Source: Geobacteraceae bacterium | GTDB lineage: Bacteria; Desulfobacterota; Desulfuromonadia; Desulfuromonadales; BM103 | DNA: 64,000 nt | NCBI GenBank assembly: GCA_024641085.1 | Contig: JAHEDT010000009.1 | Span: 1 to 64,000, forward strand | Direction of reading: 5' to 3' | Shown here: one piece after another, positions 19,652 to 27,436 of the stretch | How positions within the stretch are numbered: the first letter of the stretch is position 1 | How the letters are laid out: every line of letters begins with the position of its first letter | Position numbers and translations under genes: made by a program | Notes under the pieces: generated by a model | What the model saw: only the letters and a program-made list of their open reading frames with translations | The model's database searches: none | What the model was told of the DNA's origin: nothing

Positions 19652-19683
19652 AAGGGCGGCAGATTGGATATCTGCCGCCCTTG
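19652..19683 (-). terminator. Strong hairpin terminator of the ligase cluster
   Basis: AAGGGCGGCAGAT and ATCTGCCGCCCTT are perfect 13-base arms around a six-base loop. On the minus strand the stem is followed by GATTTTAAT. It ends the four-gene ligase/peptidase unit. Confidence 0.75.
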
Positions 19684-19717: not shown

Positions 19718-20428
19718 TCAGGCCCCTGCCGACAGCGCCGCCCGGAGGCTTGACCCGACCGCCCCCTGCAGGGCTTGCCAGGCTTCAGGCGCACCGAACA
19801 CCAGGGATTGATTGATCTCGAGTTCGATCGCCTGATAGCGATCCCCGGCATACTGCCGGCGGTAGCCCGACTGGTGGCCGTCATGAACGCCGCGATACGG
19901 ATCGTTCATGCGCACCCGCAGATCGGGCCTGGCGCTCTGCAGTGCCCTCTGCAGCAACCTGGCGAAGGTCTTTTCTTCGACTCTATGCGGGTTGTAGAGA
20001 ATGCCGATATCCGTGGTGCGCGGCTTGTCGTCGAGCACCGGGGTGAAGGAGTGGATCCCCAGATGCAGGACGCTCTCCCCTGCCCTGTGGTGTGCAGCAA
20101 TCCAGGCAGAGACGCGCGCCCGGAATGGCCGGTAGTAGGAGTCAAGCAGCCACTCTTTATCGGCCGTGTCGAGTTGACGGCTAAACTCCGACCAGAGAGT
20201 CCGGTTGTGCGGTGACCGGTTGTGATCGACCAGCAGGCGCGTGACCTGCCCTTTAAAGCAGGGGGCATGGAGCTCTCCGGCGAGGTATTCGGCCAGTTCC
20301 AGGGCGCCGGCATCATAACCACGGTGACTTTGCAGGACGACCTCATGCCCCTCGAACAGGCCATGGAATCTCGGCGGAACATGGTTCACCGCATGCTCGC
20401 AGCTGATCAGCAGAACCGGCTCAGGCAC
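19718..20428 (-). CDS. N-formylglutamate amidohydrolase-like enzyme
   Basis: This protein of about 236 residues is related to N-formylglutamate deformylase (HutG type), zinc amidohydrolases that release an acyl group from glutamate. The conserved ISCEHAVNHVP start, HRGYDAGALELA, DHNRS and HLGIHSFTP (metal ligands) and a C-terminal AIELEINQSL are all present. The start is taken as GTG at 20428, overlapping the ligase stop as GTGCCTGA, which implies translational coupling. There is no histidine-degradation gene nearby. In this cluster it more probably trims or recycles a glutamyl product of the two ligases. Confidence 0.8.
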   Translation of the reverse strand: MPEPVLLISCEHAVNHVPPRFHGLFEGHEVVLQSHRGYDAGALELAEYLAGELHAPCFKGQVTRLLVDHNRSPHNRTLWSEFSRQLDTADKEWLLDSYYRPFRARVSAWIAAHHRAGESVLHLGIHSFTPVLDDKPRTTDIGILYNPHRVEEKTFARLLQRALQSARPDLRVRMNDPYRGVHDGHQSGYRRQYAGDRYQAIELEINQSLVFGAPEAWQALQGAVGSSLRAALSAGA

Positions 20429-21650
20429 GGAACAAGACCCCTTCCTGCAGGCAGTCACAGAGTTCCCGGTAGACCGCAGCCAGGCGGTCACGATCCGGGT
20501 CATCGCCGAGCGCGGCAAGCAGGCGTCGGGCAAGCGGGCCCTCGTCGAAAATCACCTGCAGAGCCGACCAGGCCTCGTTCTCCCTTGGAATCAGGCGTTC
20601 CGCCAGGGTCCTCCACAGATCGCCCACCGTCATGCTGGGGTCACTCACACCGAACATGGCCAGGTAACGCGCATCGTCAATCACGCAGCCGCGTCCCTCC
20701 CTGAGCACCGTGGTGAAAACCCCGGCCAGCTGCGATTCGTGCCAGGCCTGCTGAGCTTCCCGCGACGCCCTGGTTTCCGCCACCAGTTCCCCGATCACCG
20801 CCACCACCAGCTGCTGGATCGCCAGGTCGGCAGCCGGGCACTCCTGGACGTCGAGCAGCCGGATTTCGATGGTATTGCGCTCGAAGCGGGCGATAGCGCC
20901 CCGCGAGTTCAGCCACTCCTCCTGGAGAATAGCGGTCGGGTCATGAGGTGCGATATCCCGGTACATCGCCTCGAGAATAACCTCCGTATAGGCCTGCCTG
21001 GTAAACGCCGCTTCCGGGATGACCTGACCGGTAATCGACGGGATCCGCGCCTGGTTGAAGCGGTAAACCTCGAGCCGGTTGTCGAGCAGGCCGGTCACCT
21101 TGCCGCCCACCACCGGGCTGGCCGCAGCGATCGCCGGCAGCAGCGGCAGGACCAGGCGCACTGCGGCATGCAGCCGGCCGAATTCATCGTCATTGGCAAA
21201 TGGCAGGTTCAGATGGGCGCTCTGCAGGTTGCTCCAGCCATGTCCGCGGCAGCCGAATACCTGGTTATAGGCATTGTAGATATCCCGATTGCCGTGGGGC
21301 CAGAGCTTGGTTTCGAGATCGGGGTCCATCCAGGGGTGCATGGCACCGGGCATCAGCATGCCTGCGAACGGCTCGAGCATACGGTTGATTTCCCGCGCCT
21401 GCCGTGAGAACTCCCCGGCCAATCCTTCGAGGGACTGTGCAGGACCGTTGGTCTTCAGCTCTATGACATGCAGAACCAGTTCATTTGACCAGCGCAGTGC
21501 CCCGCGCTTGACCTCGTTGACAGTGCGTCCGGCGACCGCCTTGAGCAGGGCATCGGTAACCGGCAGGACCGCCAGCGTCTTGCGATGAACGATCATGTAC
21601 TCGAGTTCGACCCCGTAACCCTGGAACAGTCCCAGCTTCTTGTGTGTCAC
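20421..21650 (-). CDS. GCS2-type carboxylate-amine ligase
   Basis: This 409-residue protein belongs to the glutamate-cysteine ligase 2 / YbdK fold. GYGVELEYMIV at the N-terminus, ELKTNGP, MHPWMD, WSNLQSAHLNLPF and TIEIRLLD carry the acidic metal- and substrate-binding residues of glutamine-synthetase-like ligases. It joins a carboxylate (often glutamate) to an amine with ATP. It starts with GTG in a GTGA overlap with the RimK gene stop and has GGGAGGGG as ribosome site, so translation is coupled. The partner substrate is unknown. Confidence 0.8.
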   Translation of the reverse strand: MTHKKLGLFQGYGVELEYMIVHRKTLAVLPVTDALLKAVAGRTVNEVKRGALRWSNELVLHVIELKTNGPAQSLEGLAGEFSRQAREINRMLEPFAGMLMPGAMHPWMDPDLETKLWPHGNRDIYNAYNQVFGCRGHGWSNLQSAHLNLPFANDDEFGRLHAAVRLVLPLLPAIAAASPVVGGKVTGLLDNRLEVYRFNQARIPSITGQVIPEAAFTRQAYTEVILEAMYRDIAPHDPTAILQEEWLNSRGAIARFERNTIEIRLLDVQECPAADLAIQQLVVAVIGELVAETRASREAQQAWHESQLAGVFTTVLREGRGCVIDDARYLAMFGVSDPSMTVGDLWRTLAERLIPRENEAWSALQVIFDEGPLARRLLAALGDDPDRDRLAAVYRELCDCLQEGVLFRA

Positions 21651-23119
21651 CAGCCCCTCCCTTTGTGTTGCTCGACACGACGGAACATCACGCGCATGAT
21701 TCGGTCATAGAGTTCATTCTTGAGGACCTGGTCTTCCACACCGGCATCGATGTTCGGGTTGTCATTGACTTCGATAATGTAGACCTGGTTGCCAACCTGC
21801 TTGAGATCGACCCCGTAGAGACCGTCCCCGATCAGGTTGGCCGCCTTGAGGGCCATGCGCAGAACGGGCGTCGGCAGGTGTTCCACGGGCAGGGTATCGA
21901 AACGACCTTCGGTTCTGGCACCGTCTCCGTCACGCTTGAGGATCTGCCAATGCTGCTTGACCATGTAGTAGCGGCACCCGTACAGGGGCTGCCGGTCGAA
22001 GATCCCGACCCGCCAGTCGAAGGACGTTGGCAGGAACTCCTGGGCAATGACCAGGTCCGACTTGGCGAACAGACGGTCGAGCTTTTCTTTGAGCTCCCCC
22101 TGATCGGCGGCTTTGACAACCCCCTGGGAAAACGAGGAATCCGGCTGTTTGAGCACCACCGGGAAACCGAGTTCATCGGCGATCTGACTGCGGTTGCCGC
22201 GATGCACAACCAGGGTACTGGGGGTCGGCACCTTGTGTCGCTCGAGGATCTCGGCAAGGAACACTTTGTTGGTGCATTTGAGGATCGACTCGGGGTCGTC
22301 GATCACCACCAGTCCTTCCGCTTCAGCTCGGCGGGCGAAACGGTAGGTGTGGTGGTTGACGCTGGTCGTCTCGCGAATGAAGAGCGCGTCGAACTCGGCG
22401 AGACGACCGAAGTCATCGCGGGTGATCTGCTCCACGGCGAAACCGTGCTTCTGTGCGGCGCGCTCGAAGCGCTGCAGGGCCTTGGCATCCGAGGGGGCAT
22501 CACCATCGTTGTTGCCGACCAGGATGGCCAGATCGTAGCGCGCCCGGACCCTGGCCTTAGGCGTATGATAGCGCCCGGCAAAGTAGGTACGGGCAGCCTC
22601 GAGCATGAAATCGTGGTGGTCTTCCGGTACATCGCTGACCGCGACCGGGCCAATGCTCTGCAACAGCCACTTGTTCATGCGGATGCTCCAGGTGAACTGA
22701 GCGCGCAGTAAGGGTGCCGGAAAGAGCCCGAACAATTTCTGGCTGAGCCGCTCGTAGCGTTTCGCCAGGTTGCGGCCGAAGTAGATGCTCAGAGTAAACT
22801 CCTTGCTCTGCAGCGGACCGAGGTTCTTCTGGATCAGGGCATCGAGTTCCTCGGAGATGGTCCGCACGATCACCTGGGATTTGAGATCCTGGATCGTCTG
22901 GACCCCGGGAAGCGGCCGGTGACCGCGGGCAGCTGCGAGCAGAGAGACGTAATAACCCAGGCTCTGGTAGCGGTAGGAGCGACAGAGGTTGAAGACCTTC
23001 AGGGCACGCCGAACGGTAAAGCTCGAGTCGGTCAGATACTGGCGCGCGGCGACCACTTCCACATCCGGCAGGGCATGGGACCAATCGACGGGGTCATCGA
23101 CAACGATCAAGGTTGGCAT
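21647..23119 (-). CDS. RimK-like ATP-grasp ligase with N-terminal RLAN-type domain
   Basis: This is a 490-residue two-part protein. Residues 1-190 form the extra N-terminal domain seen in long RimK-like ligases (TLIVVDDPVDW, TISEELDALIQKNL, YFGRNLAKRYERLSQKLFG). Residues 195-480 are an ATP-grasp domain: DALFIRETTSVNHHTYRFAR, DDPESILKCTNKV, FPVVLKQPDSSFSQGV and the Mg-binding GVDLKQVGNQVYIIEVNDNP. RimK enzymes add amino acids, typically glutamate, to a carboxyl group on proteins or small molecules. It overlaps the peptidase gene by 26 bases. The acceptor is unknown. Confidence 0.85.
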   Translation of the reverse strand: MPTLIVVDDPVDWSHALPDVEVVAARQYLTDSSFTVRRALKVFNLCRSYRYQSLGYYVSLLAAARGHRPLPGVQTIQDLKSQVIVRTISEELDALIQKNLGPLQSKEFTLSIYFGRNLAKRYERLSQKLFGLFPAPLLRAQFTWSIRMNKWLLQSIGPVAVSDVPEDHHDFMLEAARTYFAGRYHTPKARVRARYDLAILVGNNDGDAPSDAKALQRFERAAQKHGFAVEQITRDDFGRLAEFDALFIRETTSVNHHTYRFARRAEAEGLVVIDDPESILKCTNKVFLAEILERHKVPTPSTLVVHRGNRSQIADELGFPVVLKQPDSSFSQGVVKAADQGELKEKLDRLFAKSDLVIAQEFLPTSFDWRVGIFDRQPLYGCRYYMVKQHWQILKRDGDGARTEGRFDTLPVEHLPTPVLRMALKAANLIGDGLYGVDLKQVGNQVYIIEVNDNPNIDAGVEDQVLKNELYDRIMRVMFRRVEQHKGRGW

Positions 23120-23837
23120 ATGGTTCCTTTTTGTGCACAGGCGGCTCGATGATGATCAGGTTCCCGTCATAGGTGAGCACCCCGAGCAGGATGGCATTGA
23201 TGACGCGGGCGATCGGGCTGTGATAATTCTGCCCGACACCGAGGAAATTGGTGTGCAGGGGGTCTGCAATCAGGACCTCGCGGGTTTCGCGGTCGTATCC
23301 GCAGAGCACCACGAAATGCCCCGAAGGTTCACCGCGAACATCGTCGTAATCGCAATTCGGGCCGAACTCGCGAGGACTGCGATAGAGGAAGGTCGCGCTC
23401 AGGCCAGTGATGATCGGCAGCTTCCGCTTGAGAAAACGCCGGATCAGTGCTGGAGTCAGGTCGGCCATGCGCAAGCGGCCGCCGAGATTAAAGAATTCGA
23501 GGTAGGCTTCGGTCGTCGTGTGCAGCTTCGGGTCAGCCTTGACGGCCAGTTGCGCCACGAGCCGCTCGCGTATATCTGGCCCCTGCGGCTCCAGCCAGGT
23601 CGGGTCGAAGAGTTGCATCTTGTAGGTGTAAATCGTAACGCGGTATCCCTTGCGCAGGGCATGACAGGCGAGCCAGACACCCAGCGTGCCTCCCCCCTCC
23701 AGCATGGGAACTTCACCGATGACCCGGTCAAGCGGCAAATTCTCTCCATAGTACCCGTAAACAGCCTGCAGGCAGGTCGGGCCGCAGGTGATCTCGTCCG
23801 GCTGCGGCAGGATGTTGAGTGAGAGCCTAGTCTCCAT
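23094..23837 (-). CDS. C39-like papain-fold peptidase
   Basis: This protein of about 247 residues has the cysteine-protease signature PQPDEITCGPTCLQAVYGYY (Cys18), a catalytic His174 in GHFVVLCGYD and Asp192 in IADPL. That is the order of the C39 (bacteriocin-leader) peptidase family. It lacks any membrane or ABC domain, so it is a free-standing cytosolic peptidase or transglutaminase-like enzyme. It is the first gene of the ligase cluster. METRLS is used as the start; an ATG six codons upstream is equally possible because neither has a strong ribosome site. Confidence 0.8.
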   Translation of the reverse strand: METRLSLNILPQPDEITCGPTCLQAVYGYYGENLPLDRVIGEVPMLEGGGTLGVWLACHALRKGYRVTIYTYKMQLFDPTWLEPQGPDIRERLVAQLAVKADPKLHTTTEAYLEFFNLGGRLRMADLTPALIRRFLKRKLPIITGLSATFLYRSPREFGPNCDYDDVRGEPSGHFVVLCGYDRETREVLIADPLHTNFLGVGQNYHSPIARVINAILLGVLTYDGNLIIIEPPVHKKEPYANLDRCR

Positions 23838-24057
23838 TGAAATTACGGGCCACATCCTCGGATAGCCATGATTGGCATGACGGTTTGTGGCCGAAAATCA
23901 TTATAACAAGGATTCAGAAAACACAACCGAAAATCAGGGGTATTCTAGCGGATGTGGAGGGTCGTATGCCGGCCCTGACGAGCGGGGATTGCATCTCCCG
24001 GGTTCCCTGCCATAATGAAGAAAGCTTAACAGGCATGAAATCTTCAGGGAGGCCGCC

Positions 24058-25504: not shown

Positions 25505-27436
25505 ATGATATACACACAATCGCCCCTGGCTATCGGCCTGTTCTGTTTCTTCGTTCTTTTCGTCCTCGGCCTCTCTTTCTACCTGGCCCGCCGGACCACC
25601 TCCGCATCCGGCTACTATGCCGCCGGCGGCAACATCCATTGGTTCACCAACGGCATCGCATTTGCCGGTGACTACCTCTCTGCAGCTTCATTCCTTGGTA
25701 TCTGCGGAATGATCGCCACCGCCGGCTTCGACGGCTGGATGTATTCGATCGGTTACCTGGCCGGCTGGATGGTCGCCCTCTTTCTGGTGGCCGAGCCGAT
25801 GAAGCGGCTCGGCAAGTACACCTTCACCGATGCCCTCGACTCGAAGTTCAATTCCAAGGCGATCCAGCTGATGGCCGCGATCTCGACCCTGGCCGTTTCG
25901 GTCTTCTACCTGATTCCGCAAATGGTCGGTGCCGGCGTGCTGGTCCAGCCGCTGCTCGGCATGCCGCACTGGGTCGGCGTCTGCATTGTCGGCGTGGTCG
26001 TGACGATCATCGTTGCCACCGCGGGCATGGCGTCCACCACCTACGTGCAGTTCTTCAAGGGGGCCCTGCTGCTGATCTGTTCGACCGTCGTCGTCATCAG
26101 TCTCCTGTTCCGCGGCCTGGGCACCGACCCGAACCAGGGCAACACCAAGGAGTATCACAAGTTCCAAACCCTCTCGGCAGTGGTTGCCGACGGCACCCTG
26201 CAGGTGGCGGGTTATGATGTGGTGGCAGGCCTCGACTCGGAATTCGGCAAGGCCGGATTCGTCAAGCTGACCCGTGACGGCCATGAGTCGGTCTGGCTCC
26301 TCAAGGAGAACGGCAGCGGCGGCTACACCCTCGATGAGACCCTGTACGTCACCGACCTCGCGGACGGCACCAAACTGTACAACGGCGCGCCCAAGGAGGA
26401 CGGCAAGTTCTTTGCTGTCGGCCACATCAAGGAGATCACCGTCGACGGCAAGCAGATTGCCCAGACCGGCGCAGTCGGACCGCTCGAGTTCCTCAACCGC
26501 TTCAAGGACAGCACCGTGGTCCTTTGGGGGAAGAAATACATCAAAGCCGGCGACACCACGACCGAGATTTACTACCAGAAACCGACGCCCGGCAGCCGCA
26601 TCCTGCGTCCCGGCCTGAAATTCAAGGTCGATAACGCCAGCGGCATGGACAAGTTCAACTTCATCTCGCTGATGCTGGCACTATTCTGCGGCACAGCCGC
26701 CCTGCCTCACATCCTGATCCGCTACTACACGGTTCCCAGCCAGGCAGCGGCCCGTAAATCGACCATCGTCGGCATCGCCGCCATCGGCTTCTTTTACATC
26801 CTGACCCTCTACCTGGGGCTCGGCGCCATGACCAACGGTGTCATCAACATCACCGACAACAACATGTCGGCGCCGCTGCTGGCCCTCTCCTTCGGTGTGG
26901 TGCTCTTTGCGGTGATTTCGTCATTGGCCTTTGCCACGGTGCTCGGCACCGTTTCCGGTCTGATCGTCGCCTCGGCCGGAGCGGTCGCCCATGATTTGAT
27001 GGACAACTTCCTCGGCATGAACATGACGGACAGGGGCAAGGTTATGGCCGGCAAGGTTTCAGCCATGGTGATAGGGGCCATCGCCATCTACCTGGGGATC
27101 ATCTTCGAGGGGATGAACGTCTCCTTCCTGGTCGGCTGGGCCTTTGCCGTAGCGGCGAGTGCCAACCTGCCGGCCATTCTGATGATTCTGTTCTGGAAGA
27201 AGACCACCGCCCAGGGCGTGGCCGCTTCGATCCTGGTCGGCCTGACCTCCTCGCTCGGCCTGATCCTGGTTTCTCCGGACATGTGGGTCCGTTACGGTCT
27301 GCTGCCGCAGGACGCTCCGGTCGCCTTCAACAGCCCGGCGGCCATCTCCATCCCGGCGAGTTTCCTGGCCCTGGTCCTGGTGTCCCTCGTTACTCAGAAG
27401 AAGGGAGCCATGGTGAAGGAGGGTGTTGAAGCCTGA
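25505..27436 (+). CDS. actP: Cation/acetate symporter ActP with inserted soluble domain
   Basis: This is a 643-residue member of the sodium:solute symporter family. The transport core includes TSASGYYAAGGNIHWFTNG, IAFAGDYLSAASFLGI and HILIRYYTVPS, as in ActP, importing acetate and short carboxylates across the inner membrane. E. coli ActP is about 549 residues. Here about 150-170 extra residues (roughly 206-385) sit between two membrane segments: a hydrophilic, beta-rich domain (DGTLQVAGYDVVAGLD, YVTDLADGTKLYNG, IKEITVDGK). A terminator follows. The insertion is the odd feature; its role is unknown. Confidence 0.88.
   Translation: MIYTQSPLAIGLFCFFVLFVLGLSFYLARRTTSASGYYAAGGNIHWFTNGIAFAGDYLSAASFLGICGMIATAGFDGWMYSIGYLAGWMVALFLVAEPMKRLGKYTFTDALDSKFNSKAIQLMAAISTLAVSVFYLIPQMVGAGVLVQPLLGMPHWVGVCIVGVVVTIIVATAGMASTTYVQFFKGALLLICSTVVVISLLFRGLGTDPNQGNTKEYHKFQTLSAVVADGTLQVAGYDVVAGLDSEFGKAGFVKLTRDGHESVWLLKENGSGGYTLDETLYVTDLADGTKLYNGAPKEDGKFFAVGHIKEITVDGKQIAQTGAVGPLEFLNRFKDSTVVLWGKKYIKAGDTTTEIYYQKPTPGSRILRPGLKFKVDNASGMDKFNFISLMLALFCGTAALPHILIRYYTVPSQAAARKSTIVGIAAIGFFYILTLYLGLGAMTNGVINITDNNMSAPLLALSFGVVLFAVISSLAFATVLGTVSGLIVASAGAVAHDLMDNFLGMNMTDRGKVMAGKVSAMVIGAIAIYLGIIFEGMNVSFLVGWAFAVAASANLPAILMILFWKKTTAQGVAASILVGLTSSLGLILVSPDMWVRYGLLPQDAPVAFNSPAAISIPASFLALVLVSLVTQKKGAMVKEGVEA

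Follow-up and report, generated by a model that had tools for sequence, protein, structure and literature searches.

A conserved bacterial cassette of RLAN-RimK and GCS2 ligases with a C39-like cysteine peptidase, a candidate pathway for a small isopeptide

The window analyzed, a stretch of 64,000 nucleotides from a Geobacteraceae bacterium (contig JAHEDT010000009.1 of assembly GCA_024641085.1), carries on its minus strand four overlapping genes, predicted to encode a cysteine peptidase-like protein, two carboxylate-amine ligases and a hydrolase. The features of the locus are the following.

23094..23837, minus strand: C39-like cysteine peptidase-like gene (247 aa; an alternative ATG at 23855 would give 253 aa)
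21647..23119, minus strand: RLAN + RimK-type ATP-grasp carboxylate-amine ligase (490 aa)
22598..23047, minus strand: RLAN domain (PF14401) of the RLAN-RimK ligase (residues 25-174)
21665..22537, minus strand: pre-ATP-grasp and ATP-grasp part of the RLAN-RimK ligase (residues 195-485)
20421..21650, minus strand: GCS2-family (glutamate-cysteine ligase type 2) carboxylate-amine ligase (409 aa, GTG start)
19718..20428, minus strand: FGase (N-formylglutamate amidohydrolase family, PF05013), an accessory hydrolase (236 aa, GTG start)
~19654..19680, minus strand: likely intrinsic terminator, read directly from the sequence after the FGase stop (perfect 11-bp inverted repeat, then a T-rich run)

Overlaps between consecutive genes amount to 26 bp (C39/RLAN-RimK), 4 bp (RLAN-RimK/GCS2, GTGA) and 8 bp (GCS2/FGase). 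No additional same-strand gene is evident immediately upstream of the C39 gene and thus the operon apparently consists of exactly these four genes, the hairpin after the FGase stop being its likely terminator. An Rfam search of the window and five relatives recovered no RNA element. Elsewhere in the window, positions 25505-27436 of the plus strand encode an acetate-symporter-like SSF transporter, whose family match falls in two stretches around an insertion of ~150 residues.

A sequence-only reading of this DNA had described four overlapping genes of these families, a description that was borne out, all four proteins exceeding the curated Pfam cut-offs. The C39-like protein was assigned to Peptidase_C39_2 (1e-9); it lacks an evident signal peptide and has no match to the phytochelatin-synthase family in Pfam (E<=0.001). 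The GCS2 protein (PF04107, 8.4e-28, 98 bits against a cut-off of 21) and the FGase protein (PF05013, 4.7e-27, 96 bits against 28.9) were likewise assigned to their families. The earlier description of the second gene as a RimK-type ATP-grasp ligase also stands, but its "extra" N-terminal part is a defined Pfam family, RLAN, already predicted to act in peptide synthesis: the protein combines RLAN (1.1e-48, 165 bits against 25) with a subsequent RimK-like ATP-grasp domain (4.7e-10, 39.8 bits against 21), the arrangement that defines the RLAN-RimK family. The GCS2 protein falls below all NCBIfam cut-offs for glutamate-cysteine ligase, YbdK and EgtA (48 vs 176 bits for TIGR02050, 37 vs 371 and 27 vs 249), and the RimK half does so for TIGR00768 (75 vs 143 bits), LysX (72 vs 276) and MptN (52 vs 350). 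Since both are below every functional NCBIfam cut-off, neither should bear the name of a characterized enzyme and, given the distance of GCS2 from the glutamate-cysteine ligase/YbdK cut-offs, its substrate need not be glutamate.

All four proteins conserve a set of invariant residues. In the C39-like protein these are Gln12, Cys18, His174 and Asp192 (56/56 homologues), which places a Gln-Cys-His-Asp site on a papain fold (fold Z 18) and agrees with the proposal of Cys18, counted from the start at 23837, as the catalytic cysteine. Its AlphaFold model (pLDDT 92.6) matches C39 peptidase domains and the phytochelatin synthase Alr0975 equally well (Z 18.2); the match to this glutathione-cleaving, primitive phytochelatin synthase is one of modeled fold and does not prove an activity on gamma-glutamyl peptides. 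The invariant residues of GCS2 are Glu57, Glu64, His146, Asn148, Glu262 and Arg264, of which E57, E64, H146, E262 and R264 are presumably equivalent to the ligands of E. coli GshA. Those of FGase are E11, H12, H35, D39, H122, H126, E202 and E204, its nearest solved relative being a hypothetical protein, Atu2144 (2odf). In the RLAN-RimK ligase (model pLDDT 86.1), Arg249, Lys285, Arg370, Asp438, Glu450 and Asn452 are invariant. The C-terminal RimK half of the model matches ArgX, LysX and RimK with Z 25-27, vs Z 21-22 for Ddl and GshB, and by this comparison is closest to glutamate/aminoadipate ligases. In Pseudomonas RimK, the residues aligned with Arg249, Arg370 and Asn452 are Arg64, Arg189 and Asn262, which contact poly-glutamate (PMC10092738).

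The occurrence of the ligase is sporadic close to the window's genome (10/58 relatives and 17/395 genomes of the phylum carry RLAN) and broad beyond it, with at least 590 encoded relatives among the 84,980 species genomes scanned. Named records, mostly metagenome bins and with the phylum as named in the record, cover 15 phyla: Acidobacteriota, Bacteroidota, Balneolota, Hydrogenedentota, Ignavibacteriota, Krumholzibacteriota, Myxococcota, Nitrospirota, Planctomycetota, Pseudomonadota, Spirochaetota, Sumerlaeota, Tectimicrobiota, Thermodesulfobacteriota and Verrucomicrobiota. Among the matches listed are isolates of Blastopirellula marina, Pontibacter, Rufibacter and Thiobacillus thioparus. The order C39-RLAN-GCS2-FGase is kept in 59 of 109 neighbourhoods and that of the first three genes alone in 31 more; the four-gene set is therefore not a local accident, its order repeating well beyond chance, and the lack of a conserved order that would have refuted the earlier reading was not observed. 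Where enough contig is available, C39 precedes RLAN-RimK in 88/95 loci, GCS2 follows in 78/84 and FGase is present in 57/84, rates that describe RLANs of the cassette clade, the query having been built from such loci. These frequencies define a core of C39, RLAN-RimK and GCS2, to which FGase is accessory, so that the joint four-gene system first proposed is retained for three of its members and relaxed for the fourth.

Around the cassette, no extra neighbour gene recurs beyond near-relative synteny, no common substitute was found where FGase is absent, and small ORFs within 1.5 kb, sought as candidate precursor peptides, are shared by close relatives only. Phage records gave no match. Three viral contigs (L133, L134 and L135) carry distant RLAN/RimK-like ATP-grasp ligases that lack the cassette partners and fall outside the cassette clade. 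Several individual loci depart from the common pattern. In one genome (G282, L052:7181-8691) the RLAN-RimK gene is broken by a frameshift/stop, GCS2 and FGase are kept and C39 was not found, either because the cassette is decaying or through an assembly error. A record of Legionella adelaidensis named 'plasmid 27' (L140:2-3232), which resembles a chromosomal fragment, holds RimK-GCS2-FGase beside dapF and fur. At another locus (L100), FGase has a C-terminal extension with a weak HD-domain match, below Pfam cut-offs.

In order to evaluate co-occurrence, 199 evenly sampled Planctomycetota genomes were profiled, taking as strong RLAN matches those with E below 1e-24. Such matches are present in 46/199 genomes. 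Cassette-type GCS2 occurs in 39/46 of these vs 2/153 RLAN-negative genomes (Fisher p ~1e-31), and cassette-type C39 in 35/46 vs 1/153 (Fisher p ~4e-28), p values that are uncorrected for shared ancestry and come from genomes in most of which the genes are also linked. In one genome (G445), RLAN, GCS2 and C39 lie on three separate contigs. Pairwise distances correlate for all cassette gene pairs (r 0.52-0.75), values reached by 0/500 permutations. Cassette-type RLANs group in a single clade of the RLAN tree (SH-aLRT 95), with GNAT-fused RLANs outside; phyla are intermingled, and FGase requires ~26 changes, contig ends accounting for some of them.

The two ligases are also found joined. RLAN, RimK and GCS2 are fused as one protein of 974-1022 aa in four genomes (G627, G598, G573 and G567), representing three forms (two are near-copies, 95%) that share 52-58% identity with one another. 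Their junction consists of a variable linker, across which frame and GC3 are continuous. One locus (L154) has the order C39-[RLAN-RimK-GCS2]-FGase and, in a fifth genome (L159), a contig end carries an RLAN tail fused to GCS2. Fusion and co-occurrence data thus support the action of both ligases on one product, and conserved order, phylogenetic profile, correlated divergence and RLAN-RimK-GCS2 fusions together lend good support to the earlier proposal of a joint two-ligase system.

Some RLAN-RimK copies occur without GCS2 and C39 (genomes of L083, L103 and L104, P. aeruginosa L139 and the Planctomycetota loci L155-L157), indicating that this ligase can act in another setting. The P. aeruginosa copy, on a plasmid record (L139:7902-9491), is located near a gamma-glutamyltransferase, an asparaginase and a glutamate/aspartate ABC transporter, neighbours that possibly hint at glutamate metabolism for the solo ligase. 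Within the phylum of the window's genome, a second type of RLAN has a GNAT acetyltransferase, as fusion partner or as neighbour, in place of C39/GCS2 (L036:7701-9713, L051:7704-9653 and L049:7728-9762), suggesting that GNAT and GCS2 provide alternative first steps.

The cassette is probably a self-contained, horizontally mobile module for the synthesis and partial recycling of a single small non-ribosomal peptide, which would have an isopeptide-type bond and most likely contain glutamate. GshA-type relatives of GCS2 activate the gamma-carboxyl of glutamate. In the order of steps that we infer, GCS2 would activate a carboxylate and join it to an amine (gamma-Glu-X), after which RLAN-RimK would activate a carboxylate of this intermediate and add a second amino acid. 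The RLAN-RimK relatives RimK, LysX/ArgX, MptN and MyfB add Glu to a carboxylate, or Glu or aminoadipate in the case of LysX/ArgX (PMC8141765 and, in part, established knowledge). A cytosolic C39/phytochelatin-synthase-like cysteine enzyme could then trim or transpeptidate the product and FGase, where present, might hydrolyze a terminal amide in recycling or proofreading. More tentatively, the product may be an undescribed small glutamyl (iso)peptide (a compatible solute, a redox/metal-binding peptide or a signal) assembled by two consecutive, sometimes fused ligases and spread horizontally across at least 15 phyla.

RimK relatives modify proteins too, and the cassette could instead serve reversible protein tagging, with RLAN-RimK and GCS2 adding glutamyl or other residues to a protein C-terminus or side chains and C39 and FGase removing them. 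The RimK half is closest by fold to the protein- or carrier-modifying ArgX, LysX and RimK, the target could be encoded elsewhere in the genome, and the pairing of ligase and protease recalls RimK-RimB, which adds and trims poly-Glu on ribosomal protein S6, and RloA-RloC (PMC12239564). However, no gene for a target or carrier recurs near the cassette, GCS2 enzymes with known activity use small amines as substrates, and a distribution that is sporadic within the phylum (17/395) yet extends over at least 15 phyla would require a universal target. The window's own genome encodes no LysW carrier. A free small molecule is favored over a tag because precursor ORF, LysW carrier and recurring nearby target gene are all lacking, and protein tagging is accordingly regarded as rather unlikely.

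Quite improbable is an alternative glutathione or gamma-glutamylcysteine pathway, in which GCS2 would stand for GshA, RLAN-RimK for GshB and C39 for a phytochelatin-synthase-like enzyme. The parts list does resemble GshA, GshB and PCS, and strong GshB matches occur in 0/17 RLAN-positive genomes vs ~48/395 overall in the phylum sample, a difference that is not significant with ~2 expected. The genome of the window encodes a separate glutamate-cysteine ligase of the plant/alphaproteobacterial type (G000:C81, L138:5736-7157) and no GSH-S_ATP (PF02955) glutathione synthetase, so that its synthesis may end with gamma-glutamylcysteine or rely on a different second ligase. The absence of this GshB fits the alternative, but the separate plant-type GshA and the position of the cassette GCS2 far below the GshA/EgtA cut-offs make a plain glutathione role less likely. 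Carriers also include Legionella, Thiobacillus and Nitrosomonas, groups that generally make ordinary glutathione. Unrelated housekeeping functions had been considered from the outset as a competing explanation for the genes; for GCS2, the separate GshA-type enzyme argues against such a role in glutathione synthesis.

Least probable of all is that the cassette modifies a ribosomally made precursor, as in a graspetide-like RiPP, and that C39 is the leader peptidase, since, although ATP-grasp ligases and C39 peptidases are known from RiPP clusters (PMC8939145), the search for a linked precursor failed (small ORFs within 1.5 kb being conserved in close relatives only), transporter and other RiPP genes do not recur, C39 has no ABC-transporter fusion and RLAN-RimK groups with RimK/LysX by fold and sequence.

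Synthesis of a small isopeptide-type peptide thus remains the preferred reading. The conserved order of this module of three to four enzymes in 15 named phyla, and its presence in nearly one quarter of the Planctomycetota genomes sampled, suggest a metabolite or a protein modification that has been overlooked. A literature search found no paper on this gene set or its product.

Several known systems share parts of the cassette. On fold as well as sequence, LysX/ArgX-LysW and MptN/MyfB fall in the ATP-grasp subgroup of the cassette ligase (PMC8141765), whereas the cassette has no LysW carrier in the genome and no cofactor genes nearby. RimK-RimB and RloA-RloC of Pseudomonas likewise pair a RimK-type ligase with a hydrolase, and key substrate residues are conserved; the cassette differs in its papain-fold hydrolase, in place of a retropepsin, its second ligase, its RLAN domain and the lack of a known protein target. 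The glutathione/phytochelatin pathway (GshA-GshB-PCS) also combines a GCS-type ligase, an ATP-grasp ligase and a papain-fold enzyme, matched here through the Alr0975 fold, but GCS2 and the ATP-grasp ligase of the cassette lie outside the GshA/GshB families, the RLAN domain is additional and the genome has its own GshA.

The closest resemblance is to the RLAN-linked systems of 2009. Iyer, Abhiman, Burroughs and Aravind reportedly predicted RLAN-RimK to act in peptide synthesis together with a GNAT-papain partner and, in some cases, GCS2, which is reportedly also given as an RLAN neighbour in the text of Pfam PF14401. What the present analysis documents is a four-gene cassette free of GNAT, how broadly it occurs, the co-occurrence of its genes when unlinked and the fusions of its two ligases, parts of which may already be in the 2009 paper. 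As a single purifiable protein, the natural fusions make the 2009 prediction directly testable. A GNAT-DUF3335 papain-like partner of RLAN systems is mentioned in PMC10318531. The RLAN-RimK ligase, the papain-like peptidase partner and the GCS2 neighbour (78/84 loci here) are common to both, whereas the cassette has no recurring GNAT gene and its C39 is a stand-alone protein without a DUF3335 (PF11814) match. The cassette further differs in having GCS2 as part of its core, FGase as an addition and RLAN-RimK-GCS2 fusions, and the GNAT-fused RLANs branch outside its clade.
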